Shown here: positions 7,049-51,976 of the stretch, piece by piece | Numbering within the stretch: the first letter of the stretch is position 1 | How the letters are laid out: each line of letters opens with the position of its first letter | Source: Gammaproteobacteria bacterium | GTDB lineage: Bacteria > Pseudomonadota > Gammaproteobacteria > JAADHS01 | Direction: 5' to 3' | NCBI GenBank assembly: GCA_013151745.1 | Contig: JAADHS010000009.1 | Span: 1-52,622 of the forward strand | Length of the DNA: 52,622 bases | Position numbers and translations under genes: made by a program | The notes under the pieces: generated by a model | The model's input: the letters and a program-made list of their open reading frames with translations, nothing else | Told to the model about the DNA's origin: nothing | The model's database searches: none

Positions 7049-7188
7049 GATTTTTTCACCTTAAGCTGGCGCCAAGATTTCTATGATAAGTTATTAAAAT
7101 CAAATCGTTGCGCCTGTACAGTACCCATGATACCTGAATCCCAAGTGCTACGGGTCAGGTCGCAATCATGTGTAAGGAGTTTGTAATA

Positions 7189-8511: not shown

Positions 8512-9761
8512 AAAAAATGGTGAAAAATTCTATATTGCTATTTCTATGGGCGATTTTCCTCACCGCTTGCGGTCACATCGATTCAGAAAAAACAACACCA
8601 GCAACAGATGCTCATGGTGAAACGATTGAGGCAGAGCCAGAAAAAGGTCCGCATCGAGGGCGATTATTTAAAAGTGGCGATTTTATCCTTGAACTTGCTA
8701 TTTTCGAGACGGGTGTGCCGCCAGAATTTCGTGCCTGGGCAACAAAAAATAACAAAGCACTGGCACCTGAAGCGATCGATCTTGATATTATTTTGACTCG
8801 CCTGGGCGGTAAACAAGAACACATCAAATTCAAGCCTCAGGGTGATGTCTTACGCGGTGATACCGTTATTTATGAACCCCACTCATTTTCTGTTGCGATC
8901 AAAGTAACTCATGATGGCTTAACACATACCTGGCAATATGATAGTTTTGAGGGCAGGACTGCAATTGAAACCGCAGTGGCCGAAGCTTTGGAAATTGGCA
9001 CCACGGTTGCGGGTTCTGTGCTGATGCAAGAAACCATCACGGTGTATGGTCAGATCACAGCCAATAATGAGCGTATGCGAAAAATTACCGCTCGCTTTGA
9101 TGGCATGATTAAATTAGTGTCACCCGCACTGGGTGAGCAGGTTCGCAAAGGCCAAAAGCTAGCTACGGTTGAAAGCAATGAAAGCTTGCAACTGTTTACG
9201 GTAAACGCGCCTATCAATGGCGTAATCATTCAACGTGATGCTAACGTCGGCGAACAAACAGACGGGCGTCAACTATTCACAATTATGGATACCACTTCTG
9301 TTTGGGCGGAACTTTTTGTCTTTCCTGCCGATTTGCATCAAGTGAAAATGGGCGCACCGGTGACCATTACCGATACAACCAGCAAGCAAACGGTCAACGG
9401 AAAAATTTCTCAAATCAATATAACGGCTGAAACCGATCAATCAGTCAAGGTGCGCGTCGTATTGGATAACCAAAAAGGCCAGCTCCATCCCGGACGTCAT
9501 ATCAGCGCAGCAATAACCGTAGGAGAGCACGCCGCCGCTTTGGCTGTGAAACGAACCGGGCTACAGGCTTTCAGAGATTTTACGGTGGTTTATGCACAAA
9601 TAGGAGAAGAGTACGAAGTTCGTATGCTCGATCTTGGTCTACAAACAGGTGAATGGGCCGAAGTGTTGGGTGGCCTGGAACCGGGCACCCGTTATGTCAG
9701 CGAAAACAGCTACGTTATCAAAGCCGACATTGAAAAAGCCGGCGCAGCTCACGATCATTAA
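8508..9761 (+). CDS. czcB: CzcB-like membrane-fusion lipoprotein
   Basis: Periplasmic adaptor linking the CzcA pump to the CzcC channel. A lipoprotein signal ends FLTAC (Cys at residue 21). A PHRGRLF-type N-terminal domain common in CzcB-like adaptors follows. Next comes a split biotinyl-lipoyl region (MIKLVSPALGEQVRKGQKLA, then NAPINGVIIQRDANVGEQ), with almost no helical hairpin between the halves, as in short metal-type adaptors. Beta-barrel and membrane-proximal domains complete it (VWAELFVFPADLHQVKMG, LGLQTGEWAEVLGGLEPG). The C-terminus is His-containing (AAHDH), a possible weak metal site. It overlaps czcC by 4 nt and is 12 nt from czcA. Confidence 0.93.
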   Translation: MKKMVKNSILLFLWAIFLTACGHIDSEKTTPATDAHGETIEAEPEKGPHRGRLFKSGDFILELAIFETGVPPEFRAWATKNNKALAPEAIDLDIILTRLGGKQEHIKFKPQGDVLRGDTVIYEPHSFSVAIKVTHDGLTHTWQYDSFEGRTAIETAVAEALEIGTTVAGSVLMQETITVYGQITANNERMRKITARFDGMIKLVSPALGEQVRKGQKLATVESNESLQLFTVNAPINGVIIQRDANVGEQTDGRQLFTIMDTTSVWAELFVFPADLHQVKMGAPVTITDTTSKQTVNGKISQINITAETDQSVKVRVVLDNQKGQLHPGRHISAAITVGEHAAALAVKRTGLQAFRDFTVVYAQIGEEYEVRMLDLGLQTGEWAEVLGGLEPGTRYVSENSYVIKADIEKAGAAHDH

Positions 9762-9773
9762 AGGCCATTTATT

Positions 9774-12897
<3,124 letters not shown>

Positions 12898-13175: not shown

Positions 13176-14678
13176 CTAGGGCGCGATTTCAATTTCGTGG
13201 CTTATTTCAATATTGCCATTACTGTGCTCGGTTTCCATTCTAACGGTGAATCCCCAGAGGCGGGAAACATGACGCATGACGTCAAAGGTGCTGTCTCCGA
13301 GAGGGCGACGATTATGTTGATAATGGCGCAGTGTTAACGAACGATCACCGCGACGGTTAACGCTATAAACCTGAATATTGGGTTCTCGGTTTCCCAGGTT
13401 GTATTGATTTGAAAGTTGTTCCCTGATGTTTTGGTAGCCGCGGTCATCATGGATGGCGGTGATTTCAAGTTCACTTTGTGTATCGTCGTCTAATACGGAA
13501 AAGAGTTTGAGGTCTCGTATGACCTTAGGAGATAGATACTGGGCAATAAAACTTTCGTCTTTAAAATTACGCATGGCAAAATCCAGAGACTTGACCCAAT
13601 CGGTATTGTGCAGGTCAGGGAACCATCGTTTGTCTTCTTCAGTCGGGTTCTCACAGATACGGCGAATATCACTCATCATGGTAAAACCCAGCGCGTAGGG
13701 ATTAATGCCGCTATAGTGGGGTTCATCAAAGGCCGGTTGGTCAATGACATTTGTGTGTGCTTGTAAAAATTCGATCATAAACCCATCGGTAACCTGGCCT
13801 TCTTCATAGAGTCGATTCAAAATAGTGTAATGCCAAAATGTTGCCCAACCTTCATTCATGACCTGGGTCTGCCTTTGAGGATAAAAATATTGAGCAATTT
13901 TTCTTACAATACGTACAATTTCGCGTTGCCAGGGTTCTAGTAAAGGGGCGTTTTTTTCAATAAAATAAAGTAAATTTTCCTGGGGTTCTTCAGGGTATCT
14001 TTTTTTGTTTATGTCTGAATTTTCTTTTTCGGTCGCCGGGATAGTTTTGCGCCACAATTCGTTGATTTGCAGTTGTAAGTAGGCTTCTCGCTCTTTTTGG
14101 CGCGCTTCTTCTTTCACTAAAGACAAACGGTAGGGATGTTGATAACGATCCACACCATAGTTCATGAGAGCATGGCAGGAGTCTAGTGTTAATTCTACGG
14201 CCTCTTCACCATAGCGTTCTTCACAATGTGTTACATAGTTTTTAGCGAAAAGTAGATAGTCAATGATGGCATCGGCATTAGTCCAACTCTGAAAAAGATA
14301 ATTACTTTTAAAAAACGAATTATGTCCATAACAAGCGTGAGCGATAACCAATGCTTGCATTGTCATGGTGTTTTCTTCCATGAGATAAGCAATACAGGGG
14401 TTTGAGTTGATTACAATTTCGTAGGCGAGTCCCATACGGCCGCGGCGATAGTTTTTCTCAGTGGAAAGAAACTGTTTGCCAAAAGACCAATGGTGATAAC
14501 CCACCGGCATACCCACAGAGGAGTAGGCATCCATCATTTGTTCAGTGGAAATCACTTCAATCTGGTTAGGGTAGGTCTCCAAATTGTAACTCTCGGCAAT
14601 GCGGGAAATTTCTCTATCGTATTCTTTGATTAAATCAAAAGTCCATTCGGAAGTTATAGATAGGGGTTTACGTTTCAT
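13176..14678 (-). CDS. SpoVR/YcgB family protein
   Basis: Third gene of the widespread PrkA-YeaH-SpoVR stress module. Its biochemical activity is not established. The 500-residue length and the sequence (SEWTFDLIKEYDREI, PVGYHHWSFGKQF, AHACYGHNSFFKSNYLF, NEGWATFWHY) are typical of YcgB in gammaproteobacteria. No signal peptide or membrane segment is seen, so it is cytoplasmic. Its start overlaps the YeaH stop as ATGA, which points to coupled translation. In E. coli relatives the module responds to stationary phase and nitrogen stress; regulation here cannot be read from the sequence. Confidence 0.97.
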   Translation of the reverse strand: MKRKPLSITSEWTFDLIKEYDREISRIAESYNLETYPNQIEVISTEQMMDAYSSVGMPVGYHHWSFGKQFLSTEKNYRRGRMGLAYEIVINSNPCIAYLMEENTMTMQALVIAHACYGHNSFFKSNYLFQSWTNADAIIDYLLFAKNYVTHCEERYGEEAVELTLDSCHALMNYGVDRYQHPYRLSLVKEEARQKEREAYLQLQINELWRKTIPATEKENSDINKKRYPEEPQENLLYFIEKNAPLLEPWQREIVRIVRKIAQYFYPQRQTQVMNEGWATFWHYTILNRLYEEGQVTDGFMIEFLQAHTNVIDQPAFDEPHYSGINPYALGFTMMSDIRRICENPTEEDKRWFPDLHNTDWVKSLDFAMRNFKDESFIAQYLSPKVIRDLKLFSVLDDDTQSELEITAIHDDRGYQNIREQLSNQYNLGNREPNIQVYSVNRRGDRSLTLRHYQHNRRPLGDSTFDVMRHVSRLWGFTVRMETEHSNGNIEISHEIEIAP

Positions 14679-15937
14679 ACTTTTTTCTTTTTAAATAAGC
14701 TTCTGAAAACAGGATAAATATCAGCGATCCCTTCGATTCTTTGCATGACGAAATTTTCGTATTTAGATTTTATATTAAGGTATTCATGCCACAAATTCTG
14801 GTGGACGTCGGTGGTGATTTCTATATAGGCATAATATTGTACCAGCGGCATAATAGTGTTTGTTAACAGTTCGCGACAGAGAGGGGAGTCATCGTTCCAA
14901 TTGTCACCGTCTGACGCTTGAGCTGCGTAGATGTTCCAGTCGTTTTCCGGGTATCTTTCAGTGATGATGTCGTGCATGAGTTCCAGTGCGCTGGAAACCA
15001 CGGTACCGCCTGTTTCTCTTGAATAAAAGAAGTTTTCTTCATCGACTTCCATGGCAATAGTATGATGACGAATAAATACTAATTCAATTTTTTCATAGTT
15101 ACGGTTGAGAAATAAATAAAGTAACATGAAAAAACGCTTTGATATTTCCTTTTTTTCTTGATCCATAGATCCTGAAACGTCCATTAAACAAAACATGACG
15201 GCCTGTGTTGTGGGTAGATTTTGTTTGATTCGGTTATTGTATCTGAGATCGAATTCATCAATATAAGGGATAGCATGGACTTTCTTTTTGAGTACACATA
15301 TTTCATTTTTTAACGCGATGATGTGAGGTTCATATTCGCCGAAACGCTTGAGTTCGGCTTGCAACTCTTTTTCTTTTTTCTTGAGTTTTTTCTTGTATGG
15401 ACTTTGTAAGGCGATGCGTCTGCCCATGGCTCCCTTTAGTGATCGAATCACATTAATATTGGCTGGGATGCCGCTGGTTGCATAGCCTGCCCGGACTGTT
15501 TTTTCAGTTTCCAGTTTAGCCAGTTTGGTTTTTATAAGATCGGGTAGGGCTAAATCTTCGAAAAAAAATTGCAAAAATTCATCGCGAGAAAGTTCGAAGA
15601 TAAATTCATCCTCGCCTTCACCGCTGTTACTTGCTTTTTTTCCTCCTTTTCCACTTTGGCTTTTGGGGCGGCGTACTCTATCTCCGGCTGTAAATTCTTT
15701 GTTTCCAGGGTGAATATTTTCGGTTGTGCCGCCACTGCCATGATGGAAACTGGGTTCTGAGATATCTTTTTCTGGAATACGGACATGTTCACCTTTTTCG
15801 ATGTCGGTGATGCTCCGACCGGCGATGGCATCAGAGACCGCTCGTTTTATTTTATTTTTAAAGCGCCGAATAAACCGCTGTCGATTGACAGCACTTTTAT
15901 TCTTGCCATTTAGGCGTCGATCAATAATTTGAGACAC
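14675..15937 (-). CDS. yeaH: YeaH/YhbH family protein (DUF444), VWA-like
   Basis: Middle gene of the PrkA module, thought to be a partner of the kinase. It contains an N-terminal basic region (IDRRLNGKNKSAVNRQRF), a SEPSFHHGSGG segment, and a C-terminal von Willebrand factor A-like fold with a DxSxS metal site (LMDVSGSMD). The correct start is probably GTG at 15937: AGGAG lies 8 nt upstream, and the product then begins M-SQIIDRRLNG, matching relatives that begin just before IDRRLNG. The longer frame from 15979 would overlap the kinase gene and adds 14 unconserved residues. With the GTG start the gap to prkA is 11 nt. Product length is 420 residues. Confidence 0.95.
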   Translation of the reverse strand: MSQIIDRRLNGKNKSAVNRQRFIRRFKNKIKRAVSDAIAGRSITDIEKGEHVRIPEKDISEPSFHHGSGGTTENIHPGNKEFTAGDRVRRPKSQSGKGGKKASNSGEGEDEFIFELSRDEFLQFFFEDLALPDLIKTKLAKLETEKTVRAGYATSGIPANINVIRSLKGAMGRRIALQSPYKKKLKKKEKELQAELKRFGEYEPHIIALKNEICVLKKKVHAIPYIDEFDLRYNNRIKQNLPTTQAVMFCLMDVSGSMDQEKKEISKRFFMLLYLFLNRNYEKIELVFIRHHTIAMEVDEENFFYSRETGGTVVSSALELMHDIITERYPENDWNIYAAQASDGDNWNDDSPLCRELLTNTIMPLVQYYAYIEITTDVHQNLWHEYLNIKSKYENFVMQRIEGIADIYPVFRSLFKKKKV

Positions 15938-15948
15938 AAAAATGGCTC

Positions 15949-17871
15949 CTAGGATGACTTGCGTACCCGGAGGTACCATTCTGAAAGTAGTCTGACTTGT
16001 TTTCGAGTATAGCCTTTATCCATCATACGTTTAACGAAGTCTTCATGTTTTTTCTGGTCATCACCAGAGGCTTTGGTGTTAAACGAAATGACGGGTAAGA
16101 GATCTTCAGTATTTGAAAACATTTTCTTCTCAATAACGGTTCTTAATTTTTCATAACTGGTCCAGGTTGGGTTTTTTCCTTCGTTGTTTGCTCTTGCTCG
16201 CAATACAAAATTGACAATTTCATTGCGAAAATCTTTGGGGTTGCTGATGCCAGCGGGCTTCTCAATTTTTTCCAGTTCTTCGTTGATTGCAGGCCGATCA
16301 AATATTTCGCCAGTATCAAGGTCTCGGTACTCTTGGTCTTGTATCCAGAAATCGGCATAAATAACATAGCGATCAAAAATATTTTGTCCATATTCCGAAT
16401 AGGACTCTAAATAAGCGGTTTGTATTTCTTTGCCGATAAATTCAACATAGCGAGGGGTGAGATAACCTTTAAGGTAGGACAGATATTTTTCTTCTATTTC
16501 AGCGGGAAATTGTTCCTGTTCAATTTGTTGTTCTATAACATAGAGTAAATGCACGGGGTTGGCGGCAATTTCACTATGATCAAAATTGAAAACTTTCGAT
16601 AGTATTTTAAAGGCAAAACGGGTGGATAAACCGGTCATGCCTTCATCAACGCCGGCGTAATCTCTATATTCTTGGTAGGATTTTGCTTTTGGATCCGTAT
16701 CTTTTAAGTTTTCACCATCATAAATTTTCATCTTTGAGTAAATGCTGGAATTTTCAGGATTCTTAATGCGCGAGAGCGTGGCAAATTGAGCCATCATGGT
16801 CAAGGTATCTGGCGCACAAGGGGCTTGCGATAACGAGCTGTTGGCTAGGAGTTTATCGTAAATGTGTACTTCTTCTGATACTCTCAAGCAGTATGGAACT
16901 TTAACGATGTATATTCTATCGAGAAAGGCTTCATTGTTTTTATTATTTTTGAATGCCAGCCACTCGGACTCATTGGAATGAGCCAGCACAATACCTTTAA
17001 AAGGGATGGCACCGAGTCCTTCTGTGCCTTTGTAATTACTTTCTTGTGTTGCAGTGAGTAAAGGATGCAATACTTTGATCGGTGCTTTGAACATTTCTAC
17101 GAATTCTAATAGCCCCTGGTTTGCCAGGCAAAGTCCTCCGGAGTAGGAATAGGCATCGCTATCATTTTGACTGAATTCTTCGAGTTTTCGAATGTCAATT
17201 TTGCCGACGAGTGCCGAAATATCCTGATTGTTTTCATCTCCCGGTTCTGTTTTGGCAACGCCTATTTGCTTAAGCGTTGAAGGACGTTTTTTGACCACTC
17301 TGAATTTAGTAATATCACCATTAAATTCATGAAGGCGTTTTACCGCCCAGGGAGACATAATACTATTGAGATAGCGCTCGGGAATATGGTAATCATTTTT
17401 CAAGATGTCCCCATCTTCAATAAGCGAAAATAAACCCAGAGGGGATTCATTAACAGGGGAATCTTTTAATGCGTAAAAGGGCACGGTTTCCATTAAAGAT
17501 TTTAATTTTTCAGCGAGTGAAGATTTGCCACCACCGACAGGGCCCAATAAATATAGAATTTGCTTTTCTTCTTCCAGCCCCTGTGCGGCATGGCGAAAGT
17601 AGGAAACGATATTTTCAATGACATCTTCCATGCCATAAAAATCCTTAAAGGCGGGGTAGACGCGGAGAATTTTATTAGAGAAAAGTCGGCTTAACCTCGG
17701 GTCATGCCGAGTGTCTATGCTTTCAGGTTCACCTATTGCCATTAACATGCGTTCTGCGGCGGAAGCGTAAGCGGATTTATCCTGCTTACAAATATCTAAA
17801 TATTCTTGTAGCGTATATTCGTCTTCAAGTGCATCATCGAAGCGGCTTTGGTAGTGGTTAAAAATATTCAT
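15949..17871 (-). CDS. yeaG: PrkA-type serine protein kinase (YeaG)
   Basis: Cytoplasmic kinase/AAA+ protein heading the stress module. It has a Walker A motif (LLGPVGGGKSSLAEKL, about residue 95) within the PrkA AAA domain and the conserved C-terminal PrkA domain (YLSYLKGYLTPRYVEFIGKE region onward). Length of about 640 residues is normal. ATG at 17871 is preferred over 17892 because GAGGT stands 8 nt before it and the protein then begins MNIFNHYQSRF as in homologues. Its operon (PrkA, YeaH, SpoVR) lies between two MITE copies at 12943 and 17971. The upstream MITE begins 100 bp before this start, so it may lie in or next to the promoter. Confidence 0.97.
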   Translation of the reverse strand: MNIFNHYQSRFDDALEDEYTLQEYLDICKQDKSAYASAAERMLMAIGEPESIDTRHDPRLSRLFSNKILRVYPAFKDFYGMEDVIENIVSYFRHAAQGLEEEKQILYLLGPVGGGKSSLAEKLKSLMETVPFYALKDSPVNESPLGLFSLIEDGDILKNDYHIPERYLNSIMSPWAVKRLHEFNGDITKFRVVKKRPSTLKQIGVAKTEPGDENNQDISALVGKIDIRKLEEFSQNDSDAYSYSGGLCLANQGLLEFVEMFKAPIKVLHPLLTATQESNYKGTEGLGAIPFKGIVLAHSNESEWLAFKNNKNNEAFLDRIYIVKVPYCLRVSEEVHIYDKLLANSSLSQAPCAPDTLTMMAQFATLSRIKNPENSSIYSKMKIYDGENLKDTDPKAKSYQEYRDYAGVDEGMTGLSTRFAFKILSKVFNFDHSEIAANPVHLLYVIEQQIEQEQFPAEIEEKYLSYLKGYLTPRYVEFIGKEIQTAYLESYSEYGQNIFDRYVIYADFWIQDQEYRDLDTGEIFDRPAINEELEKIEKPAGISNPKDFRNEIVNFVLRARANNEGKNPTWTSYEKLRTVIEKKMFSNTEDLLPVISFNTKASGDDQKKHEDFVKRMMDKGYTRKQVRLLSEWYLRVRKSS

Positions 17872-17970
17872 GGCGATTACCTCGTTATGCACAGGTTAAC
17901 GGTATTCTGTAGCTTAAAAATTAAGCAATTAACAGGCCATTGGATAAGGCATAGGAATGGAGAGACATTA

Positions 17971-18501: not shown

Positions 18502-20544
18502 ATGAAGTTCCAGATAATGATCCGCGCTGTGGCCATGGCGCTAGCGGTATGTTGTGGTTTTATTTTTGTACCGGCTGTTGCCTTGTCTGAACAGGGCAAG
18601 GTGATGGATATAGCTCAACCGGATGGTCAGGTTTCAATCAGCTTGAAAGAACTGGGTTATGAAGATGGCATCAGCTTTGAAGGGGCGGCAACCCGACATG
18701 AAGCAAAATTAGCTTACTCCGTTCCACGCGATACACTCATTTCCTCTGCAAATATTCATCTTCGTTATACCACTTCGCCGTTGTTGAATGAGCTTGCAAA
18801 TGTTTTGTTGCTGGTCAATGGGCATCCGCTTAAGCAGGTGCAATTGGCGGATGAAAAATACAATCATGAGCTTAAAGTTGAAATTCCTGTTGATTTACTC
18901 CAGGCGGGTACTCTGGATATTACGCTCAAGGTGGCTCTATTCGTCTCGGACGATCGTTGTCTGGATTCCCGTATTGACAGTGCATTATTACATATTGAAT
19001 CAGATTCAATACTCACTATTGGCTACCAGGGTGGTATTGCTTCGTTACGTGATGCCTGGATTTTATTGCCTGAAAAAGTGGTGCTCACGATACCAAGCAA
19101 ACCTTTTTCGGAGGATGAATACAGCGCAACCTGGGAGATTATGGATCACCTGTACCGCCAAGGGAAAGAAGTCGTCATTACGCATTATCCAGAAATTGGT
19201 CATATCGTTATCGGCGACAGGTCAAAGCTGAAAAAGCAGTTGCAACTGGAGATGCAATCTTCAGCCCTCTCTCAGAAAGACTCAAACCCATTGAAGAGCA
19301 CGGATGATAGCAATATGATTGAGTTGGTGAGCAGCCCCTTACGTAGTGTGATTTCAATAACCAGACCGGCTGAAATATCGGTTTCTGCGTTGATGAGCGA
19401 TACTTGGCAAAAATTGGTAGCAGGTCGTCAATACCAAACGTTTACGACAGGGTTGAATGAACAATTTAATAATTCTACTCACTTGAATGAGCTCGATCAC
19501 GCGAAAGAAATCAGGCTTGCTGATCTGGGTATGGACACATCAATCCATTATGTTCGAGCTAATACGGAATGGAAGTTATTGTTGGACCCTTTCAGAATGC
19601 CTGCAGGCACACGTCCGACCCGATTATTTGTAGATCTGATTGCGCCACCTCCACCAAATAAGACGGCGTTTAGTTTGTATGCCTATTTAAATGGCATTAT
19701 GGTTTATGCGCAACAGCTGGAGGACAGCAGGGATATACAGCATCTGCAAATTCCGTTACCGCTTAGGTATCAACAGCTCTATAACAACATACGCATACAG
19801 ATTATGCATGCGGAAGCCAGTGGAGACTGTAAACACGATCTCGCTGCATTTCCTGTACAGCTATTACCTGAGAGTACTTTGATTGTTGAGCAGAGTACGG
19901 ACAGCCCCGAACGGTTTGTTGATTTGCCCGCCTATCTTGCTGATCAATTTGATTTTTATTTGCCTCTTGCATACCTTGAAGATCCGGTTCAGTCTCTGCC
20001 TTTTATCGCTGCTTTTACAGCACGTTACCCCGTACCTTTTGCCAGTCGTAAAGCGATTTTCACCAAGCCCGGCCAGCCTTTGAGTCCAGAACGTCCATTC
20101 ATTGCATTAGGCGATGTTGAATTTGAAGAATTAAAGGCGCGTGTTAGCTATGACCGGGGGAGGATTGAAATTCGGGATCGAAAAGGTAAGTCTTTACTGC
20201 AGGTGGATGAGTTATCGAAAGTTTCAATTGCACAGCTTGTCACCAGTCAAGGTCAGCATGGTCTATGGTTACGGTCTGGTGACAGTGACCCTTATCCGGA
20301 TGTACGAAAATTATTTTTGAATGAAGGTGATGTCGCCTTTGCGGATCAGAGCGGTTTGTTATTTAGTTTGAATAGCGTAGAGGCGAACCTGGCTCGAGTA
20401 CATTACCCGGCAGTTCGGGACTGGTTGACCATAGCCAATGAATATCGCTTCTGGATAATGGCTTTTGCTTGGCTGGCTCTGGTGCTGGGTATTGTTTACC
20501 TGTTTAGACGAACCCGTCAACATCAAAAAAATAACCAGGAATAG
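18502..20544 (+). CDS. BcsB-like periplasmic subunit of a glycan synthase
   Basis: Predicted membrane-anchored periplasmic partner of the glycosyltransferase encoded next. It has a signal peptide (about residues 1-29), a long beta-rich periplasmic region with BcsB-type jelly-roll/flavodoxin-like features (SLKELGYEDGISFEGA, LLVNGHPLKQVQL, DDRCLDSRID, VFVDLIAPP-like stretch near residue 375) and a single C-terminal membrane helix (WIMAFAWLALVLGIVYLF) followed by basic residues. At 680 residues it is somewhat shorter than cellulose BcsB. Its stop overlaps the GTG start of the glycosyltransferase by one base. Because bcsC, bcsZ and a PilZ domain are absent, the polymer need not be cellulose. AAGG precedes the ATG. 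Confidence 0.85.
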   Translation: MKFQIMIRAVAMALAVCCGFIFVPAVALSEQGKVMDIAQPDGQVSISLKELGYEDGISFEGAATRHEAKLAYSVPRDTLISSANIHLRYTTSPLLNELANVLLLVNGHPLKQVQLADEKYNHELKVEIPVDLLQAGTLDITLKVALFVSDDRCLDSRIDSALLHIESDSILTIGYQGGIASLRDAWILLPEKVVLTIPSKPFSEDEYSATWEIMDHLYRQGKEVVITHYPEIGHIVIGDRSKLKKQLQLEMQSSALSQKDSNPLKSTDDSNMIELVSSPLRSVISITRPAEISVSALMSDTWQKLVAGRQYQTFTTGLNEQFNNSTHLNELDHAKEIRLADLGMDTSIHYVRANTEWKLLLDPFRMPAGTRPTRLFVDLIAPPPPNKTAFSLYAYLNGIMVYAQQLEDSRDIQHLQIPLPLRYQQLYNNIRIQIMHAEASGDCKHDLAAFPVQLLPESTLIVEQSTDSPERFVDLPAYLADQFDFYLPLAYLEDPVQSLPFIAAFTARYPVPFASRKAIFTKPGQPLSPERPFIALGDVEFEELKARVSYDRGRIEIRDRKGKSLLQVDELSKVSIAQLVTSQGQHGLWLRSGDSDPYPDVRKLFLNEGDVAFADQSGLLFSLNSVEANLARVHYPAVRDWLTIANEYRFWIMAFAWLALVLGIVYLFRRTRQHQKNNQE

Positions 20545-22433
20545 TGAAACGAATGAAGGATGCTGCAGGTGATATAACGCCACTCGGGGAATTGTTGGTT
20601 GCCCGAGGTTTACTTGCACATAAACAGCTGGATAATGCGCTTGAACTACAAAAAAAATGGGGGACGCGCTTGGGTGATATTTTACTCTCCAAAGGCTGGG
20701 TTCGTGCTCAGGATTTTTATCTCACTCTTGCTATTCAGCAACAAAAACCATTTATCAATCTTTTTAAAGCATTTCCTGATACCCGGTTATGGAAGGATGA
20801 AGAACTGACTCGTTACACCGAGTTACTGGTGTTACCTTTCCGTAAAATGGAGGGGTATACTTTGTTTGCCATCGCGGATTCGACGCCGGCTGTATTTGAG
20901 TACATGAATGAACAAAGCAGTGGCTCGTATGATTATGTTATAACATCCAAATTTGACATCATATGGTCAGCACAAAGTAAAGCAGATCATCATTTCAGTG
21001 ACCTAGCGGTCAATGAGCTTGCTCGACAACAACCCGTAAATTCAGCCGGACAAGTGTTTACCAGCCAGCAACTTTTTTGGCTTTTCGCTATTTTATCTAC
21101 GTTTATTGTGTCTGTTACGTTGTGGCCTGTGATGACCCTGATCCTGGTTAATATTTTTATCAGTATTTTTATGCTGTTGAATTTTGGGTTGCGCATGTTG
21201 TTTGCGTGGGTGGGTAGCCATACAAAAATAGATGTCAAAGTTACGGATGAAGAAGTCACAGCTATCGATGACCGTGATTTGCCTTTGTATACGGTTCTTG
21301 TACCCATGTACAAGGAACCGGAGGTGTTGCCCATTATTACGGAATCGCTGAGAAATATGGATTATCCGCTTTCAAAGCTGGATATCAAGCTGATACTGGA
21401 AGAAGATGATGAGGAAACGATTGCTGCAGCCAAAGATCTGGGTCTGGAAGGCATGTTCGAAATTATTCGAGTTCCGAGTTCGTTACCTCAAACCAAACCC
21501 AAGGCCTGTAATTATGCGCTGAATTTTGCGCGTGGCGAATTGGTCACAATTTATGATGCTGAAGATAAGCCTGAGCATGACCAATTAAAGAAAGCGGTTA
21601 TCGCTTTTCGAAAAGCTCCGGAAAATACAGCGGTCATTCAGGCTCGCCTTAATTATTTTAATGCGGATGAAAACTGGCTTACACGGATGTTTACTCTGGA
21701 GTACTCTCTCTGGTTTGATTTTTACTTGCCGGCGCTTGAATCGTTAAAAATACCGATTCCGCTGGGAGGTACTTCGAACCACTTTAAATTCCAAATATTG
21801 AAAAAAGTTAACGCCTGGGATCCCTATAATGTGACTGAAGATGCGGATTTGGGTATTCGTTTGAGGCAGTTGAACTATCATGTTGGTGTGGTCAATTCGA
21901 CGACTTACGAAGAAGCTAATAATCAATTGGGTAACTGGATTCGTCAACGTTCGCGTTGGATTAAAGGGTATATGCAGACCTACCTTGTGCATATGCGCCA
22001 TCCCGTGCGCTTGTATAAATCATTGGGACATGTTGGTTTTTGGGGTTTCCAGTTTTTTATAGGTGGCGCTGTGCTCAGCTGTTTGTTGGCGCCTGTTTTG
22101 TATTTAATGTATTTCATTTGGTTGTATAGCCAGACTCATCTCATGGATGTCGTCTTTCCTCCCATTATTTTATACATCAGTCTGTTCAGCCTGTTACTGG
22201 GTAACGGATTGTTGGTTTATTTATCTGCTCTGAGCGTATTCAAACGCCATCTATATCATTTGATTCCCTGGGCACTAACCGTCCCGATTTATTGGTTAAT
22301 GATGTCCATTGCAGCTTATAAAGCACTTTGGCAACTGATACATAAACCTTTTTATTGGGAAAAAACCACGCACGGTTTAACTCAGTTTTTAGATGCTGAC
22401 CCGCGTAAAAAAAAGGATCAGGCCAACGTATGA
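20544..22433 (+). CDS. BcsA-like family 2 glycosyltransferase with N-terminal MshEN-like domain
   Basis: Inner-membrane processive-type GT2. Residues 13-36 (PLGELLVARG...Q) and 42-65 (RLGDILLSKG...Q) form two 24-residue motifs separated by five residues, the layout of the c-di-GMP-binding MshEN domain of GspE/MshE-type ATPases. The first motif has Pro where Arg is usual. Two membrane helices (about 173-222) come before the catalytic domain, with DAED at 338-341, TED at 431-433 and QRSRW at 468-472. Several more helices follow, and the chain ends without a PilZ domain. E. coli NfrB also pairs a GT2 with an MshEN-type domain, but in it the domain is C-terminal as I recall. GTG at 20544 or ATG at 20553 may start it. 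Confidence 0.9.
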   Translation: MKRMKDAAGDITPLGELLVARGLLAHKQLDNALELQKKWGTRLGDILLSKGWVRAQDFYLTLAIQQQKPFINLFKAFPDTRLWKDEELTRYTELLVLPFRKMEGYTLFAIADSTPAVFEYMNEQSSGSYDYVITSKFDIIWSAQSKADHHFSDLAVNELARQQPVNSAGQVFTSQQLFWLFAILSTFIVSVTLWPVMTLILVNIFISIFMLLNFGLRMLFAWVGSHTKIDVKVTDEEVTAIDDRDLPLYTVLVPMYKEPEVLPIITESLRNMDYPLSKLDIKLILEEDDEETIAAAKDLGLEGMFEIIRVPSSLPQTKPKACNYALNFARGELVTIYDAEDKPEHDQLKKAVIAFRKAPENTAVIQARLNYFNADENWLTRMFTLEYSLWFDFYLPALESLKIPIPLGGTSNHFKFQILKKVNAWDPYNVTEDADLGIRLRQLNYHVGVVNSTTYEEANNQLGNWIRQRSRWIKGYMQTYLVHMRHPVRLYKSLGHVGFWGFQFFIGGAVLSCLLAPVLYLMYFIWLYSQTHLMDVVFPPIILYISLFSLLLGNGLLVYLSALSVFKRHLYHLIPWALTVPIYWLMMSIAAYKALWQLIHKPFYWEKTTHGLTQFLDADPRKKKDQANV

Positions 22434-22446
22434 GGGTGATGTTGTT

Positions 22447-23937
22447 ATGATACCGGCGAATAGGCAGGGCGCCGATTTTGCCTGGTTGCTGCTACTTGGG
22501 GTGCTATTGGCAGTGTGTTCTATTTGGCTGATAAGCAACAACTTCAGCAATGAGGTTGCGCTACGAGACTGGGTTAAGGTTTTAGGGGTTATGGATGCCG
22601 ATCAGTTTCGTATCGAGCATCTTGGGCTGAATGCACCCCACGTCCCATTGTATTTGTTAATGCCTTTTTCTTGGTTACCGAGTAACTCACAGGGGGCGGC
22701 GCCTTATCTACTCTCCAGTTTATTGGTTGCACTATTGCTGGTGATTTGGAACTACCAGCTTCGCCAGAAACAATTGACACTATGGCAACGTTTTTTGCTG
22801 CTGTTGTTAGTTTTGTTACAAGTCCCTTTGTTGTGGGCGGCAACGACAGGTGAAAATCTGGCGCTCACTCTTCTGGTTTTTTACTTTGTGTATCGAACGT
22901 GTTTACGGATGAGTTTTGAAGCTGATTTACGTTCTTTTATCATGCTGGGCATATTGCTGGCTCTATTATTTTTTATTGATGCAGGCGCTCTGTTTATATA
23001 TATCGCTCTTTTTCCTTTTTTTGCATTAATCGCACCACGGCGTATTTTTTTGGCATCACCCATCAGTGTTTATATTGTGATTGCTATACCGCTGGCCGTG
23101 GCCGTACTGGCATGGGGCTATCTTGGCTGGATTTTTGAAGGGACTGCCAATAATTTTATCCATCAACCGAATTCGACCTTTCTTGGCGGTTGGCAGCATA
23201 CCCCTGAATCACCCTGGTTGATTCGTTACGGGGGGCAATGGTTGGCTCCACTGGGTGCCTCTGTGGTGTTATTGATTGTTTATTTTCCGATTTTCTTGTT
23301 GCTGTTGGCGTTGCTTGTAAAGCATAAGAATCATTTGAAAGTGAGTTTGGTGCTGCTGTGTGTACCCTTGATTGCCATTGCGTTTGCGAGCAGTAAATTT
23401 TATCTGGAACGTCCTGTTGAGATGCTGGCATTGCTGATGGTGGGTGTGATGGCGGAGCTAAGCGTGATTCAAATTCGCCAGGGCTGGAAATTTCCTGCTG
23501 TTGTTTTGTTACTTTTTGTGGGCGGGATATCGGGCTGGTACCATTTTTTGCAGACGCCGGATCCTGTCGCGCGCGATTGGCAGAAGGCGCTTTTGGGTCA
23601 TCAAGACAATAGGTATGAGGCAGACCTAGCGTTGGGACAATTTTTATCCAGGCATCGTGGTGAAATGTTGATCGATGATTTGACTGCTTATCGTGCTATT
23701 GCAGCTCGCGGCGATGCAGAAAAAATGGCTCTGCCCCGGTCAGATCAATTTAAATTACAGACTCGCCAGCAGAGACCTGATATAGAGTATATCGTCGTAC
23801 CCAATCCGCGTATAAAAAAAGGAGGTTGGGATCGTATCAATAAACATTTTCCTGACTTGTATCACGAGGGCATGAAAGGCTATAGGCGAATTTATGATGA
23901 TCAAGGCTGGCGGGTATTCAGGCATGTCTCGGATTGA
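22447..23937 (+). CDS. Polytopic inner-membrane protein, GT-C-like
   Basis: Protein of 496 residues with about ten hydrophobic helices in the first 390 residues and a soluble C-terminal part (about 390-496). I recognise no precise family. The layout (early extracytoplasmic loop with acidic residues after helix 1, many helices, C-terminal periplasmic domain) is that of GT-C/PMT-type lipid-linked sugar transferases, and a related role on the same glycan is plausible. ATG at 22447 is chosen because GAGGGT lies 9 nt upstream and overlaps the stop of the glycosyltransferase; a longer frame from 22393 would overlap that gene. The end overlaps the hydrolase gene. Confidence 0.65.
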   Translation: MIPANRQGADFAWLLLLGVLLAVCSIWLISNNFSNEVALRDWVKVLGVMDADQFRIEHLGLNAPHVPLYLLMPFSWLPSNSQGAAPYLLSSLLVALLLVIWNYQLRQKQLTLWQRFLLLLLVLLQVPLLWAATTGENLALTLLVFYFVYRTCLRMSFEADLRSFIMLGILLALLFFIDAGALFIYIALFPFFALIAPRRIFLASPISVYIVIAIPLAVAVLAWGYLGWIFEGTANNFIHQPNSTFLGGWQHTPESPWLIRYGGQWLAPLGASVVLLIVYFPIFLLLLALLVKHKNHLKVSLVLLCVPLIAIAFASSKFYLERPVEMLALLMVGVMAELSVIQIRQGWKFPAVVLLLFVGGISGWYHFLQTPDPVARDWQKALLGHQDNRYEADLALGQFLSRHRGEMLIDDLTAYRAIAARGDAEKMALPRSDQFKLQTRQQRPDIEYIVVPNPRIKKGGWDRINKHFPDLYHEGMKGYRRIYDDQGWRVFRHVSD

Positions 23938-24976
23938 TAGATTGCGTGGTGTGTCACTGGTCTGGGTTAGCATGCTGCTGTTAATGGGGCAGAGTGTCGA
24001 TGCAAATACGCTACGAGGGTTTAATTTCTTGCAGGACAGGCAAACGACACTGGATTCGTCACGGGTCTGCCTGTCATTAAAAAAACTTCAAAAGACCGGT
24101 GCCAATTCTATTATTTTGATCCCCTTTATGAAGCAAGAAAGTCAGCGCGCAGTGACGCCGTCTTTGGCAGAGAATGTCACTGATGGGCAACTGATTGCCG
24201 GAATTCGTGAAGCGAAGCGCCAGGGTTTGCATGTGATTGTTAAACCCCAGTTATTGGTCAGTGGTTCCTGGGCTGGAGAAATCAAGCTGATGACGGATAA
24301 GGATGAGCGAATCTGGTTCAAGCGTTATATAGAACATATCATTCATTACGCCAGAATAGCGGAAAAAAACCAGGCCGATGCTTTTGTGGTTGGCACTGAA
24401 ATGAAGCAGTTGAGGAAAAGTAAATACTGGCGAGAGGTTATTCAGGCTGTACGTGGTCACTTCAGAGGGCGTATCACTTATGCCGCGCATGGTCTCGAAG
24501 GTGTCGTCGAATTTCCATACTGGGATTTACTCGATAATATCGGAGTGACTTTGTATCCCGTATTTCCGGAAAAGGCGAATGCGGGTCAAGTTTTAGCGGT
24601 GACGGATCGGCTCATGGACGAGCTTAGAACAATAACTCGAAAATATACGGATAAAGCAGTTTGGATACTTGAAATTGGTATGCCCTCTGCCGAAGGCTGG
24701 GAGCCGCATCCTTGGGATTGGCAAAAATTACGCGATGAAAAACCGCGAGCGGACAGTCAAATGCAAGCGGTCATTATTAAGGAATGGCTGACATCTGTCG
24801 ATCGCCCCTGGATTGACGGCGTCTGGATATGGCAATGGAGCAGCTCACCGCAAGCGGGGGGTGAAGACGATGCGGATTATACAGTACAAAATAAACCCGC
24901 AGAGTTGATGATTCAGGCTGTCTGGCAAGGCGCTAAGTTAATTTCGAACGATGAGGTCAGGCCATGCGAAAATTAA
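23924..24976 (+). CDS. Secreted GH113-like glycoside hydrolase
   Basis: Predicted periplasmic or secreted TIM-barrel glycosidase of 350 residues, similar in pattern to family GH113 (beta-mannanases). It has a signal peptide (MSRIDRLRG..., ending QSVDA), the barrel-strand motif HVIVKPQL, the presumed acid/base Glu in VVGTEM (about residue 159), DNIGVTLYP, and the presumed nucleophile Glu in WILEIGMPS (about residue 250). The spacing of about 90 residues between the two Glu fits the clan. ATG at 23924 leaves a 14-nt overlap with the preceding gene. In an EPS operon such an enzyme commonly trims or releases the polymer, as BcsZ does for cellulose. The substrate cannot be read from the sequence. 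Confidence 0.75.
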   Translation: MSRIDRLRGVSLVWVSMLLLMGQSVDANTLRGFNFLQDRQTTLDSSRVCLSLKKLQKTGANSIILIPFMKQESQRAVTPSLAENVTDGQLIAGIREAKRQGLHVIVKPQLLVSGSWAGEIKLMTDKDERIWFKRYIEHIIHYARIAEKNQADAFVVGTEMKQLRKSKYWREVIQAVRGHFRGRITYAAHGLEGVVEFPYWDLLDNIGVTLYPVFPEKANAGQVLAVTDRLMDELRTITRKYTDKAVWILEIGMPSAEGWEPHPWDWQKLRDEKPRADSQMQAVIIKEWLTSVDRPWIDGVWIWQWSSSPQAGGEDDADYTVQNKPAELMIQAVWQGAKLISNDEVRPCEN

Positions 24977-25812
24977 TGAAGCAGAGACGTTTTAAACAGG
25001 GCTTGCTGAGTCTGATTTTATTGACGGGTGTTGCCATTGCGCAGGCGGCCAGCCCCTGGATGCGTTCCGAAGGTGATCGTTATTACTGGGCCGGTACCAG
25101 TTATTCAACGGGAAATCAGTTCTGGGATGGTGGAAATGATTTGCAGGATGCAGATTGTCGAAATAATGACTGGAAAACATTTCACAAGTTTGAATATGGA
25201 TATAGCTATTATTCTACTTTAGTCGCAGGATTAAGTGCAGGTTCTGTTCGTTGTGGTGATGATGATGAGCTTACCGGAGTGGGTGATCTGACGCTGGGTA
25301 TTCGAGGGCGACTGGACATCTACAGCAATGGCAAAAGCTGGGAAATCACGGCCATTATACCGACTGGGTATGACCGTAATAACCCATCGCGCTTGGGTAA
25401 TGGCCGGTTTGGTATTGAGGGCGGAGTGGCCTGGTCCTCCCGGGAGAGAGGGAGGTCTATGCTTAGTCCCTGGTCCTGGGAAGGGAGTACTTCTATTCGC
25501 CTTTGGCAAGGTCCTCCTGCGGATCAGTTTCTCAGTTCCTTTTCTGTACGTCGACGTATTACCGCAGTCAGCGGGATCAGTGTGCGTATTAGCGGCGATA
25601 TTTCCTTACGCAATGAATCACCCGAAAAAGTCAAGTTCGAGAATCGGACTCGCTTGACGGATTTCGACAAAATAAGAGCAGCCATCTCATGGTCCAGTCG
25701 TATCAATACGCGCTGGTCTTACCAAACAAGTATCGGTCATGTTCTGTGGGGTAGAAACGCCACTAACAACTTGACGGTGGGTCTGAATATCAGCTACGAC
25801 TGGAGACAGTGA
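24964..25812 (+). CDS. Outer-membrane beta-barrel protein of the EPS operon
   Basis: A 282-residue exported protein. The signal peptide (about residues 1-29, ending AIAQA) is followed by short amphipathic strands rich in Tyr, Trp, Ser and Gly separated by charged loops (FEYGYSYYSTLVAGLSAGS, SWEITAIIPTGYD, RFGIEGGVAWSS), ending NLTVGLNISYDWRQ. It has no TPR region, unlike BcsC or AlgK-type exporters. The start lies inside the hydrolase gene (13-nt overlap). It could be an outer-membrane pore or anchor for the polymer, similar in place to the barrel protein in XagABC-like loci; this is inference from context. Confidence 0.75.
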   Translation: MRKLMKQRRFKQGLLSLILLTGVAIAQAASPWMRSEGDRYYWAGTSYSTGNQFWDGGNDLQDADCRNNDWKTFHKFEYGYSYYSTLVAGLSAGSVRCGDDDELTGVGDLTLGIRGRLDIYSNGKSWEITAIIPTGYDRNNPSRLGNGRFGIEGGVAWSSRERGRSMLSPWSWEGSTSIRLWQGPPADQFLSSFSVRRRITAVSGISVRISGDISLRNESPEKVKFENRTRLTDFDKIRAAISWSSRINTRWSYQTSIGHVLWGRNATNNLTVGLNISYDWRQ

Positions 25813-25817
25813 ACCTT

Positions 25818-27611
25818 ATGAAATTATCAACTCGTTTTATTCATCGCTATGCCTGGATGCTTATCTCTACCGGCATGTTTGCTCTGTTTTTTATCAGTGC
25901 CTCGAGTCATGCTCAGGTTCGTCATACGCAAGAGCAAGTAGATTTGTCGCAGATGAATATAGGGCAGATTCACCTTAATATGAGACCGGTTGATGCCGAG
26001 GTTCTGTTTCGTAAGGATCAGCATGATACGTCTTCGTTTGCCGTGAGCGTCAAGGATGACGACGGCCAATTATTGAAAGGGCGAGTCAAAGTATCCGGTA
26101 GTTTTACTCGGCGATTTCCCAAGAAAAGCATTTTAATCAAGCTCGACAGCGAACAGCAGTGGCGCGGCCAGAGAAAAATATCCCTCGATGCTATGGCGAC
26201 AGATGGTTCGATGCAGCGTGAATGGCTCGTTTGGCAATTGGCGCATGCGCTGGGTATGCCCGGCCCCAGGTTGCAATATATTCGGGTCTACATTAACGAC
26301 GATTACAAGGGATTATTTATGCATACCGAGTGGCTGGATCCCCAGGTTATGGCGCGCTATGGGTTGGGTTCCGACGGGCAGTTTTTTCATCCTTCAGATT
26401 CACAGTTTTGTGGCGATTTTCTACCGCACAAAAAAAATACCCTGGCGGATTGCTGGTTCAAACTCTCGCCTCGTGACCAAGATTTTTCACCGCTGCAAAC
26501 ATTGGTGGATCAGCTTGCTCAAACACCCGTTGCAAAGTTTAATGAATACCTGGAAGCACATTTTGACGTTGATTCGGTGATCAACTGGCTGGCGCTGAAT
26601 GTGCTTGTCAGTAATGGCGATACTTATAATAAAAACTATTTTCTTTATCAGTCCGCTGTTACCGAAAAATGGGTGGTGATCCCTTGGGATTATGACCTGT
26701 CCTTCGGTCGCAATTGGGATGCTTATCTACCGTTTCCAAAAGATGTGTTGAACGATAATTTCCAGTATTTTTATCCACCTGAGCTGGGTGCACCGAACCC
26801 ATTAAAAGAAAAAACATTACGTAATCCGGTTCTCAAAAAGCGCTTTACTGAGCGATTGCTGCATCTTCTTGGGGAAAAAAAGAATGGGCTTGAGACTACT
26901 TTTGGCTGGTTTAGTCCGGAAAATATGCGCGCCCGTATTAACAACACCAGTATAAAATTTCAGTCCGACCGTCTTGATGATCCCTATCTTAAGGACAGTC
27001 AAATTAATTTTATGCAAGAAACAGAAAGCCTCTGGCATTATGTGCAGAGACGATATGCGTATCTGCGCATCATTTTTAAAGGTGCGGTACCTTGGGATCC
27101 AGAGCTTGCGATTTGGGATCCGGCTGATGCACCACCCCGACCCCCGCTCAGTGTCAATGTGTCTGCCAGCCTGGAAATGCCAAGTAATAATCAATATGCG
27201 CTGATTGCCGCACCGGCTTATGGTTATCTCCTGGCAGCAATAAAGTTGAAAGATGACTACGGGTTGGCTGAATTCAGTGTTGAATCTAAAATAAAACACA
27301 CGCCCACCGTCCTGCCTCCGGGCTACGATGCCTCATCCTGTATCCAGCGCAACTGGTTTCTGACTTTGCGGACCCCATTCAAATCACGACTCATAGATTT
27401 ACAACTGGATTATTTACAGGAAGACTCTAGGCGTCAGGAACTGGGAAGGGGGCGTATTGAGCAGAATCTTGACCTATGGGCTCTGGATGGCGAGCATTGG
27501 CAAAAGCTTGATGTGCGTATTAATCCTTTGTCAAACGTGATCAGTATAGATAATGTAATCATCAGACCATCACAAATGTTACGTTTTGTTGCTTGCTCGG
27601 CAGATAAATGA
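25818..27611 (+). CDS. Secreted CotH-type atypical protein kinase
   Basis: CotH-family protein of 597 residues with a signal peptide (about residues 13-32, ending ASSHA). CotH of Bacillus is an atypical kinase that phosphorylates spore-coat proteins. Family features visible are the basic strand SGSFTRRFPKKSILIKL (about 93-109), GLFMHTEWLD with its Glu (about 165-174), NGDTYNKNYFLY, and the metal-binding WDYDLSFG (about 290-297), equivalent to the DFG-type site. A C-terminal region (about 430-597) is beta-rich and unrecognised. ATG at 25818 is preferred to the GTG at 25809, which has no room for a ribosome binding site. It overlaps the transporter gene as ATGA. A target in the envelope (protein or glycan) is inferred. 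Confidence 0.88.
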   Translation: MKLSTRFIHRYAWMLISTGMFALFFISASSHAQVRHTQEQVDLSQMNIGQIHLNMRPVDAEVLFRKDQHDTSSFAVSVKDDDGQLLKGRVKVSGSFTRRFPKKSILIKLDSEQQWRGQRKISLDAMATDGSMQREWLVWQLAHALGMPGPRLQYIRVYINDDYKGLFMHTEWLDPQVMARYGLGSDGQFFHPSDSQFCGDFLPHKKNTLADCWFKLSPRDQDFSPLQTLVDQLAQTPVAKFNEYLEAHFDVDSVINWLALNVLVSNGDTYNKNYFLYQSAVTEKWVVIPWDYDLSFGRNWDAYLPFPKDVLNDNFQYFYPPELGAPNPLKEKTLRNPVLKKRFTERLLHLLGEKKNGLETTFGWFSPENMRARINNTSIKFQSDRLDDPYLKDSQINFMQETESLWHYVQRRYAYLRIIFKGAVPWDPELAIWDPADAPPRPPLSVNVSASLEMPSNNQYALIAAPAYGYLLAAIKLKDDYGLAEFSVESKIKHTPTVLPPGYDASSCIQRNWFLTLRTPFKSRLIDLQLDYLQEDSRRQELGRGRIEQNLDLWALDGEHWQKLDVRINPLSNVISIDNVIIRPSQMLRFVACSADK

Positions 27612-28972
27612 CCCGTCATATAAAGGCACTGGCTGGTCGTGTCATGTCGCTGTCTGCGACGATACACAGTGATGAAGTTGGGCCGACGCTCAAGCTGGCA
27701 TTGCGTATTTTTCTTATTCTGTTTGCTTATTACCTGCTTAAACCGGCTCGCGAAGCTTTTATCCTCGCGGATGGTAGTGCGGAGCTGCGCAGTTATTCGG
27801 TGGCTTTGCAAGCGGTGGTGCTTTTGATTGCGATTCCGCTTTACAGCGCACTCTACAAGCGTGTCTCTGGTGAGAAATTATATAATCGAATCACCGCTTT
27901 TTTTGTCGTGACGCTGCTTGGGTTTTGGTTGGCGGGGTCGAATGGTTTCGCAATTAGTGTACCGTTTTTTATTTGGTTGGGTATTTTCAGTGTGACACAA
28001 GTTGCCCAGTTCTGGGCGCTTGTTGCAGACCTGCATCGCCCCACGTCAGGTAAGCGACTGTTTGCGATTATCGGTTTTGGCGGTTCTTTGGGGGCTGTTT
28101 TAGGTTCCGTTTGTGCCTCAGAGCTTTTTTCTTATGTAGGGCCGTATACTTTATTATTACTGGCGGCAGTCCTTCTTGTGTTGAGCAGTTTGGGAGGGCG
28201 AGTTAAGACCTCGGATTCTAATGCACCCATTCGGTCTGCGACTACGGTTGACTGGCACTCAATGCTGGGTGGTTTGCATTTGGTGATGCAATTACCTTAT
28301 TTGCGAATTTTGGCCGTGCTCGTCGTATTGCTCAATTGTGTTAATTCAATCGGGGAGTATATTTTGGCGAGTATGGTTGTCGATCATTTTTCCAGTATTG
28401 CTTCTAGCGACGAACGAGGTATGCGGATTGGCGAATTTTATTCGGACTTTTTCTTTTGGGTCAACTTGATCAGTTTGCTGTTACAGTTTTTTCTTGTTTC
28501 GAGAATCTACCAGGTGATTGGTGTGCCGGGTGCCATATTATTATTACCTTTGATTACAACCATAGGTTATGCCTTGATTGCTTTTTTCCCCATTTTTGCA
28601 GTTGTGCGTATTATTAAGATTGTCGAAAACAGCACAGATTATTCGATCAATGCAACCAGTCGCCATGCGCTTTTTCTTCCTGTGTGTACCAGTTCGAAAT
28701 ACTTGGGGAAAACCACGATCGATACTTTTTTTTGGCGGCTTGGCGATTTAATTCAGGCCGGGATTGTTTTTGCGGGTACGACCTGGCTTGGGTTAAAGTT
28801 GGGTGCCTTTGCTGCCATTAATGTATTGCTTTCAATGTTATGGTTGTGGATGGCTATGCAGGTAGGGCGATATTATAAACACTATACAGAACAATCGTTA
28901 CAAACCGATAAGGTTGACATGACGAAGAAGCTCTTACCCTCCAGGCCAGATAGCCATACCCATGGTGATTGA
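27608..28972 (+). CDS. Carrier of the NTP/NDP exchange transporter-like (MFS) type
   Basis: Polytopic inner-membrane protein of 454 residues with about eleven to twelve hydrophobic helices. The opening LFAYYLLKPAREAFIL, followed by an Arg/Ser-rich loop, and the motif FAIIGFGGSLGAVLGS resemble the ATP/ADP translocase-like branch of MFS proteins found in many free-living bacteria. The true substrate of such free-living members is mostly unknown. It starts within the stop codon of the CotH kinase gene (ATGA), so the two are probably made together. Its last residues and stop codon lie in a decayed MITE end. Supply of nucleotide to the periplasm for the kinase is an attractive but untested idea. 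Confidence 0.75.
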   Translation: MTRHIKALAGRVMSLSATIHSDEVGPTLKLALRIFLILFAYYLLKPAREAFILADGSAELRSYSVALQAVVLLIAIPLYSALYKRVSGEKLYNRITAFFVVTLLGFWLAGSNGFAISVPFFIWLGIFSVTQVAQFWALVADLHRPTSGKRLFAIIGFGGSLGAVLGSVCASELFSYVGPYTLLLLAAVLLVLSSLGGRVKTSDSNAPIRSATTVDWHSMLGGLHLVMQLPYLRILAVLVVLLNCVNSIGEYILASMVVDHFSSIASSDERGMRIGEFYSDFFFWVNLISLLLQFFLVSRIYQVIGVPGAILLLPLITTIGYALIAFFPIFAVVRIIKIVENSTDYSINATSRHALFLPVCTSSKYLGKTTIDTFFWRLGDLIQAGIVFAGTTWLGLKLGAFAAINVLLSMLWLWMAMQVGRYYKHYTEQSLQTDKVDMTKKLLPSRPDSHTHGD

Positions 28973-48379: not shown

Positions 48380-48402
48380 ATGAGTTTCCTATTAGTTTCG
48401 AG

Positions 48403-49284: not shown

Positions 49285-49314
49285 GGTCTCATCTTAGTTT
49301 ATTTGTAGATTGAT

Positions 49315-51932: not shown

Positions 51933-51976
51933 GTTCTTTAAACCTTTAATGTTGCAATACCTGTAGTGATTGAAAT

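Follow-up and report, generated by a model that had tools for sequence, protein, structure and literature searches.

What does a seven-gene operon make when it joins a polysaccharide synthase to a CotH kinase and a nucleotide-carrier-like membrane protein, and has such a system been described before? The question arises from positions 18502 to 28972 of contig JAADHS010000009.1, a stretch of 52,622 nucleotides (the window) from a member of the Gammaproteobacteria. Seven + strand genes tile this region in the open reading frame (ORF) map of the window, and they overlap at all six junctions by 1 to 44 bases. The stop codon of the BcsB-like gene and the GTG start of the glycosyltransferase family 2 (GT2) gene have one base in common, and the GT2/GT-C, GT-C/GH113, GH113/barrel, barrel/CotH and CotH/NTT junctions overlap by 4 to 44 bases. 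An earlier reading of the letters alone, here called the sequence-only reading, had described seven co-directional genes that overlap or nearly touch and had named the seven products correctly: Pfam matches above cut-off were obtained for the BcsB, GT2, GH113, CotH and TLC (NTT) proteins, and structural models bear out genes 3 and 5, for which the Pfam search of the window proteins gave no match. By its gene content the locus is a complete operon for the synthesis and export of a polysaccharide, and its assignment to the sfz (twisted-stalk) type is, to judge by the sequences, nearly certain.

The genes sfz1-sfz6, with an ATP-ADP antiporter directly adjacent, have been proposed to make the twisted stalks of the Zetaproteobacteria (Koeksoy 2021, PMC8250860). 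Mariprofundus carries the same seven genes in the same order as the window, its GT2 is 60% identical (strain PV-1; 60-61% across Mariprofundus), and the CotH, barrel and NTT proteins of the window are homologues of their Mariprofundus counterparts. The sequence-only reading had held that the system matched no textbook operon and had stated that a gene-for-gene match to a described exopolysaccharide (EPS) operon would end the claim to novelty; sfz1-6 with the antiporter is such a match, and the novelty of the operon therefore falls. What remains of that reading are its gene identities and its inference of phosphorylation, which was reasonable and gains support below. The two loci do differ in that the Mariprofundus genes are spaced more widely, whereas the junctions of the window all overlap, and in that the PV-1 Sfz6 is a CotH protein of 1591 aa with a long SH3-containing N-terminal part compared to the 600 aa of the window CotH. 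Furthermore, the host of the window is a gammaproteobacterium, known here from its genes alone. The published annotation of sfz assigns a type II secretion system (T2SS) EpsE domain to the GT2 N-terminus and places the hydrolase in GH10 (PMC8250860); for the window proteins, MshEN and GH113 are the better calls.

The gene order is kept in 5/5 homologous loci found class-wide, with the carrier in place in 4/5, and in Mariprofundus, so that the arrangement is not due to chance. Profile searches showed this arrangement of all seven genes in several gammaproteobacterial metagenome-assembled genomes (MAGs) as well. No close GT2 was found among relatives in the window organism's own family and the locus is therefore patchily distributed. 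The genome assembly contains no 16S rRNA gene. An Rfam scan of the window gave no match, including no c-di-GMP riboswitch or other RNA element. The compact seven-gene operon of the window is a convenient unit for expression.

Beyond these close relatives, a genome scan with the GT2 alignment recovered Mariprofundus PV-1, M. micogutta, M. erugo, Ferriphaselus R-1, Xanthomonas, Pseudomonas and many Alphaproteobacteria. In 66 loci, 9 kb or more of sequence is available on the downstream side of the GT2. Of these, 12 have the barrel together with CotH and NTT, two have barrel and CotH only, and 52, among them the Ferriphaselus R-1 locus, have none of the three; one of the two loci with barrel and CotH only (L053) ends inside CotH at the locus edge. 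Barrel and CotH are jointly present or jointly absent in all 66 loci, and the NTT occurs only alongside both. Two locus subtypes share a GT2/GT-C core, to which sfz-type loci add the Sfz5 barrel, CotH and NTT. In xag-type loci (Xanthomonas, Pseudomonas, Alphaproteobacteria) CotH and NTT are missing, and a barrel, where there is one, is only distantly similar. Xanthomonas xag resembles the window in its GT-C and GH113 proteins and in a GT2 of the same family (55-58% identical), but its xagA-type barrel is only distantly similar and lies upstream of the GT2, and CotH and NTT were found neither at the locus nor in the one Xanthomonas genome tested. In a tree computed with a site-mixture model, GT2s from genomes with a sfz-type CotH form one clade (SH-aLRT 99), which holds the window GT2 together with Mariprofundus Sfz2 and stands apart from the xag-type; the Thiobacillus GT2 is inside this clade in the mixture tree and outside it without the mixture model.

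The betaproteobacterial counterpart of sfz, sfb1-4 of Ferriphaselus, has been termed 'xag-like' (Kato 2015, PMC4643136). It encodes BcsB, GT2 (59% identical in R-1), GT-C and GH113 proteins in the order of the window, but barrel, CotH and NTT lie elsewhere in the genome. Directly upstream of the R-1 cluster is cyc2 (L054:6032-7396; locus tags PMC4643136), which links iron oxidation and stalk genes. According to Koeksoy et al. 2021 (PMC8250860), stalk-forming Betaproteobacteria are without sfz5, sfz6 and the antiporter, which would leave sfz1-4 as the only genes that may be essential. Homologues of all three are nevertheless carried by the Betaproteobacteria Ferriphaselus R-1, G390, G398, G416 and G424. 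In Ferriphaselus R-1 a barrel gene and a CotH gene lie side by side (L217:6292-9326; 219 and 583 bits), and the genome also has a TPR-fused CotH (L216; 590 bits) and an NTT (L157:6571-7932; 477 bits). None of these is linked to the synthase. The R-1 CotHs are sfz-type, since no other gammaproteobacterial CotH exceeds 114 bits with this profile. In a sample of 100 Gallionellaceae genomes the synthase is present in five (G371, G390, G398, G416 and G424), and the sfz-type CotH and the NTT are each present in the same five and in 0/95 others. The barrel adjoins CotH in all five, at the synthase locus in two and unlinked from the synthase in three, and co-presence holds even with the genes at distant sites, as in G371 and G390. 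The NTTs of G416 and G424 score 278-282 bits, within the generic NTT range, but each is situated close to the locus and no other was found in its genome. If shared ancestry is ignored, two sets of five drawn at random from 100 would coincide with a probability of 1.3e-8. CotH and carrier, whose co-occurrence with the GT2 the sequence-only reading had wanted checked, track the sfz-type synthase across genomes. What is new is this co-inheritance of kinase and carrier with the synthase and the correction of the published betaproteobacterial gene content; barrel, CotH and NTT become core stalk-gene candidates.

It could be argued that CotH and NTT are mere passengers inherited with the cluster that have no role in the glycan. 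Both lie at the 3' end of the operon and the genome with locus L038 manages without a linked NTT. Against this, they are kept with the synthase even at distant sites (G371 and G390) and the CotH catalytic residues are invariant in 13 sequences, which makes the passenger explanation very improbable.

The BcsB-like protein (18502-20544, 680 aa) is the predicted periplasmic, membrane-anchored synthase partner of the Sfz1 type. It matches PF03170 (9.7e-20; 70.9 bits, cut-off 21) and an N-terminal signal sequence and a C-terminal membrane helix are visible in its sequence. The next gene (20544-22433, 629 aa) encodes a BcsA-like inner-membrane GT2 synthase of the Sfz2/XagB type that matches PF13632 (77.3 bits, cut-off 27), PF13641 and PF00535 and has the catalytic motifs YDAED (337), TED (431) and QxxRW (468). 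Residues 13-65 form an MshE-type c-di-GMP-binding domain (MshEN; NCBIfam NF053729, 58.1 bits, cut-off 38), which is absent from the sequence-only reading and makes control of the system by c-di-GMP highly likely. Three better known synthases were rejected as identities for the GT2: cellulose synthase (CelA TIGR03030, 43.8 bits vs a cut-off of 699; the hydrolase moreover is GH113, not the GH8 of BcsZ), the PNAG synthase PgaC (TIGR03937, 40.6 vs 422) and NfrB (NF008411, 31.8 vs 1170, matching only its MshEN part). The E. coli NGR system (NfrAB, PMC8669469) likewise has a GT2 and an MshEN domain under c-di-GMP, but the MshEN domain of NfrB is C-terminal rather than N-terminal, NfrA is a TPR barrel, and BcsB, CotH and NTT are missing.

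Gene 3 (22393-23937, 514 aa; the true start may be 3' of 22393) is, according to its predicted structure, a GT-C-fold membrane glycosyltransferase of the Sfz3/XagC type. A PDB search with its sequence was without match, but the AlphaFold model built from a homologue alignment (pLDDT 93) gave ArnT (5f15, 1.1e-4), AftA and PglB as top PDB fold matches. Gene 4 (23894-24976, 360 aa) encodes a hydrolase of the GH113 family and Sfz4/XagD type that starts with a signal-like sequence and is thus probably secreted. It matches PF22612 (2.8e-44; 152 bits, cut-off 27) and the beta-1,4-mannanase 5ylh in the PDB (1.5e-29), with both catalytic Glu residues aligned and the pair conserved. Since GH113 is a beta-1,4-mannanase family, a mannan-like polymer is suggested, at about even chances. 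Two further observations point the same way. In Xanthomonas a beta-1,4-mannanase has been implicated in the dispersal of biofilms that need the xag genes, the xag polysaccharide itself being uncharacterised (PMC3528676), and in Mariprofundus PV-1 a gene for a ManC-type GDP-mannose/PMI enzyme adjoins the NTT gene. Gene 5 (24964-25812, 282 aa) starts with a signal-like sequence and encodes what is by its model a 12-strand outer-membrane beta-barrel of the Sfz5 type. The AlphaFold model, also from a homologue alignment, has a pLDDT of 80, and its best PDB fold match is the COG4313 channel 4rl8 (TM 0.71), followed by FapF.

The sixth gene (25809-27611, 600 aa) encodes a predicted secreted CotH kinase of the Sfz6 type that matches PF08757 (2.5e-57; 195 bits, cut-off 23.8) and the CotH structure 5jd9 in the PDB (1.8e-20), and that is 38.5% identical to its homologue in Ferriphaselus R-1 and 35.7% to that of Mariprofundus PV-1. 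Its D271 and D294 align with the catalytic D228 and D251 of B. subtilis CotH at the same 23-residue spacing, and substitution of these residues abolishes the activity of the B. subtilis enzyme (PMC7821199). Both Asp residues are invariant in an alignment of 13 sequences, as are cysteines, which together with the signal-like N-terminus fit an extracytoplasmic site. The window protein consists of the CotH domain only and has no N-terminal SH3 domain; the other gammaproteobacterial members are also short, and the Sfz6 SH3 domain is therefore treated here as a variable, not a defining, feature of sfz-type clusters. CotH probably acts in this polysaccharide pathway. The retention of the catalytic Asp pair and the co-inheritance of CotH with synthase, barrel and carrier suggest that something in the pathway may be phosphorylated outside the cytoplasm, which strengthens what the sequence-only reading had inferred.

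There are two precedents that tie CotH to secreted polysaccharides. The sequence-only reading had held that Pel operons carry no CotH, which is wrong for the Gram-positive ones, where CotH is an accessory gene (PMC7112168) and where a CotH mutant showed lower Pel-driven aggregation, CotH being needed for full aggregation (PMC12345266). As in the window, CotH is there an accessory of a synthase-dependent polysaccharide with a linked phosphate-handling gene, but the synthase is another one, and a polyphosphate polymerase and DUF4956 take the place of the NTT. The second precedent comes from Ferriphaselus R-1, where a second sfz-type CotH, about 1490 aa long and with N-terminal TPR repeats, is encoded 3' of BcsB and GH8 (BcsZ-like) genes (L216:77-7071), so that a cellulose-type locus, too, has a CotH attached. 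Another second sfz-type CotH, of about 1490-1500 aa, is found in G390 (L253:6639-11141).

The target of CotH could instead be a protein (the barrel, the BcsB-like partner or a secreted matrix protein). In that case CotH would regulate or assist assembly, and the glycan would stay unphosphorylated. The one well-studied CotH acts on spore-coat proteins as a Ser/Thr protein kinase (PMC7821199), a regulatory role has been suggested for the Pel-linked CotH (PMC7112168), and barrel and CotH are always together and move as a pair. No obvious substrate protein with Ser/Lys/Arg repeats is encoded in the operon, however, and the Ferriphaselus CotH-TPR fusion by bcsB and GH8 fits a glycan substrate equally well. 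The TPRs of other synthase-dependent systems are on the export path. A protein target is a real but minority possibility. If CotH does phosphorylate the polymer or its exporter, the binding of metal could be accounted for, and the kinase would need an extracytoplasmic supply of ATP.

The last gene (27608-28972, 454 aa) may answer that need, as it encodes an NTT-type ATP/ADP carrier-like membrane protein. It matches the TLC/NTT family PF03219 (33.4 bits, cut-off 21), and the NTT profile scores 663 bits in the window. A PDB search with the single sequence gave no match, but a profile search matched the Chlamydia NTT 9j3n (1.8e-24) and the plant NTT1 9j3j (4e-18). These matches, and the fact that the gene tracks CotH in sfz-type genomes, make it conceivable, if somewhat doubtful, that the carrier feeds CotH with ATP. 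Alternatively, its cargo might not be ATP/ADP (but a nucleotide by-product, a nucleotide sugar or NAD), and the carrier would then serve the supply of sugars and not CotH. The PV-1 NTT with its ManC-type neighbour would suit such a role, free-living NTTs are uncharacterised with broader roles expected (PMC5381601), and CotH elsewhere is without NTT. On the other hand, a TLC match was found in 0/3 xag-type genomes tested, which have the same synthase family and no CotH, and the Gallionellaceae NTT tracks the same five genomes as CotH. This other-cargo explanation is a plausible minority view. The NTT gene offers a way to test whether ATP is available outside the cytoplasm of Gram-negative bacteria. 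In MAG ES_Gamma_035 the NTT gene is split over two overlapping frames (L040:18831-19801 and L046) by a frameshift or an assembly error.

Taken as a whole, the locus is best, and with somewhat better than even probability, explained as a sfz-type synthase-dependent exopolysaccharide system with CotH and carrier steps. Which genes are present, how they are ordered and how they relate to sfz and xag is read from the sequence, and the mechanism is inferred. It is proposed that c-di-GMP binds to the MshEN domain of the GT2 and so activates the enzyme, which together with the BcsB-like protein would polymerise a chain, probably beta-1,4-mannan or glucomannan-like, across the inner membrane. The GT-C enzyme may decorate this chain in the periplasm with side sugars taken from lipid-linked donors, and the 12-strand barrel would be the outer-membrane outlet. 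CotH, secreted to the periplasm or the surface, would phosphorylate either the glycan or one of the export proteins, resulting in an anionic, metal-binding matrix, and the carrier would feed it by swapping cytoplasmic ATP for periplasmic ADP. In its most specific form, with a dedicated NTT that brings ATP to the periplasm and a CotH that phosphorylates the nascent exported polysaccharide so that the anionic matrix templates iron mineral in stalk-formers, the proposal is speculative and unlikely to hold in full.

Several points weigh against this explanation. No biochemical or genetic data were found in the literature for any sfz gene, and neither transport direction nor substrate of free-living NTTs is established, broader roles being expected (PMC5381601). 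In the class, 11 other genomes with a strong CotH are without an adjacent NTT, most of them without any NTT, and NTT-like genes occur in 107/369 genomes, so that CotH is not generally dependent on NTT; a general CotH-NTT partnership was accordingly rejected, the link holding only for the sfz-type system. Even there locus L038 is a sfz locus without linked NTT, the only clear exception, with a generic NTT elsewhere in its genome. Finally, the Gallionellaceae counts are uncorrected for shared ancestry, and, as the tree divides the five GT2s into two or more lineages, they represent few independent events.

Twisted iron stalks have been proposed as biomarkers of ancient iron oxidation, the genes behind them are still candidates, and recent surveys treat the sfz genes as an iron-stalk marker. 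The operon might make an iron-binding stalk in the window gammaproteobacterium too, as proposed for Mariprofundus. The gene set is the same as sfz and the genome encodes a monohaem c-type protein of 424 aa, the size of a porin, whose N-terminus resembles that of Cyc2, but similar proteins are found in genomes without known iron oxidation. Moreover, a Ferriphaselus Cyc2 query was unmatched in the operon-bearing genomes G203, G067 and G344, although Cyc2 diverges fast and the same query matched PV-1's own Cyc2-like protein by its N-terminus only. One Cyc2-like protein is too little to call the window organism an iron oxidiser, and a stalk-making role there is rather unlikely. Should the operon-bearing gammaproteobacteria turn out not to be iron oxidisers, iron stalks could not safely be predicted from sfz genes alone. 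The coordinates G000:C1:72879-73025 (L126/L218) refer to the 424-aa protein, which has a CxxCH motif and is a possible outer-membrane iron-oxidation porin.

Elsewhere in the window, a cluster on the - strand (46523-52582) encodes an fn3-domain protein, a GT2 and a GT4 and is probably another surface-glycan locus, and a Bac_transf sugar transferase is encoded at 1392-2792. An outer-membrane efflux protein, a HlyD-type adaptor and an AcrB-type pump are encoded on the + strand at 7168-12897. The AcrB-type ORF of 770 aa matches profile positions 263-1020 only and is preceded by a 269-aa ORF, so the gene may be frameshifted. Three adjacent - strand genes at 13176-17892 resemble, by reading alone, the prkA-yeaH-spoVR (yeaG-yeaH-ycgB) stress set, and positions 5445-6320 encode a carbonic anhydrase of the PF00194 'eukaryotic' type.

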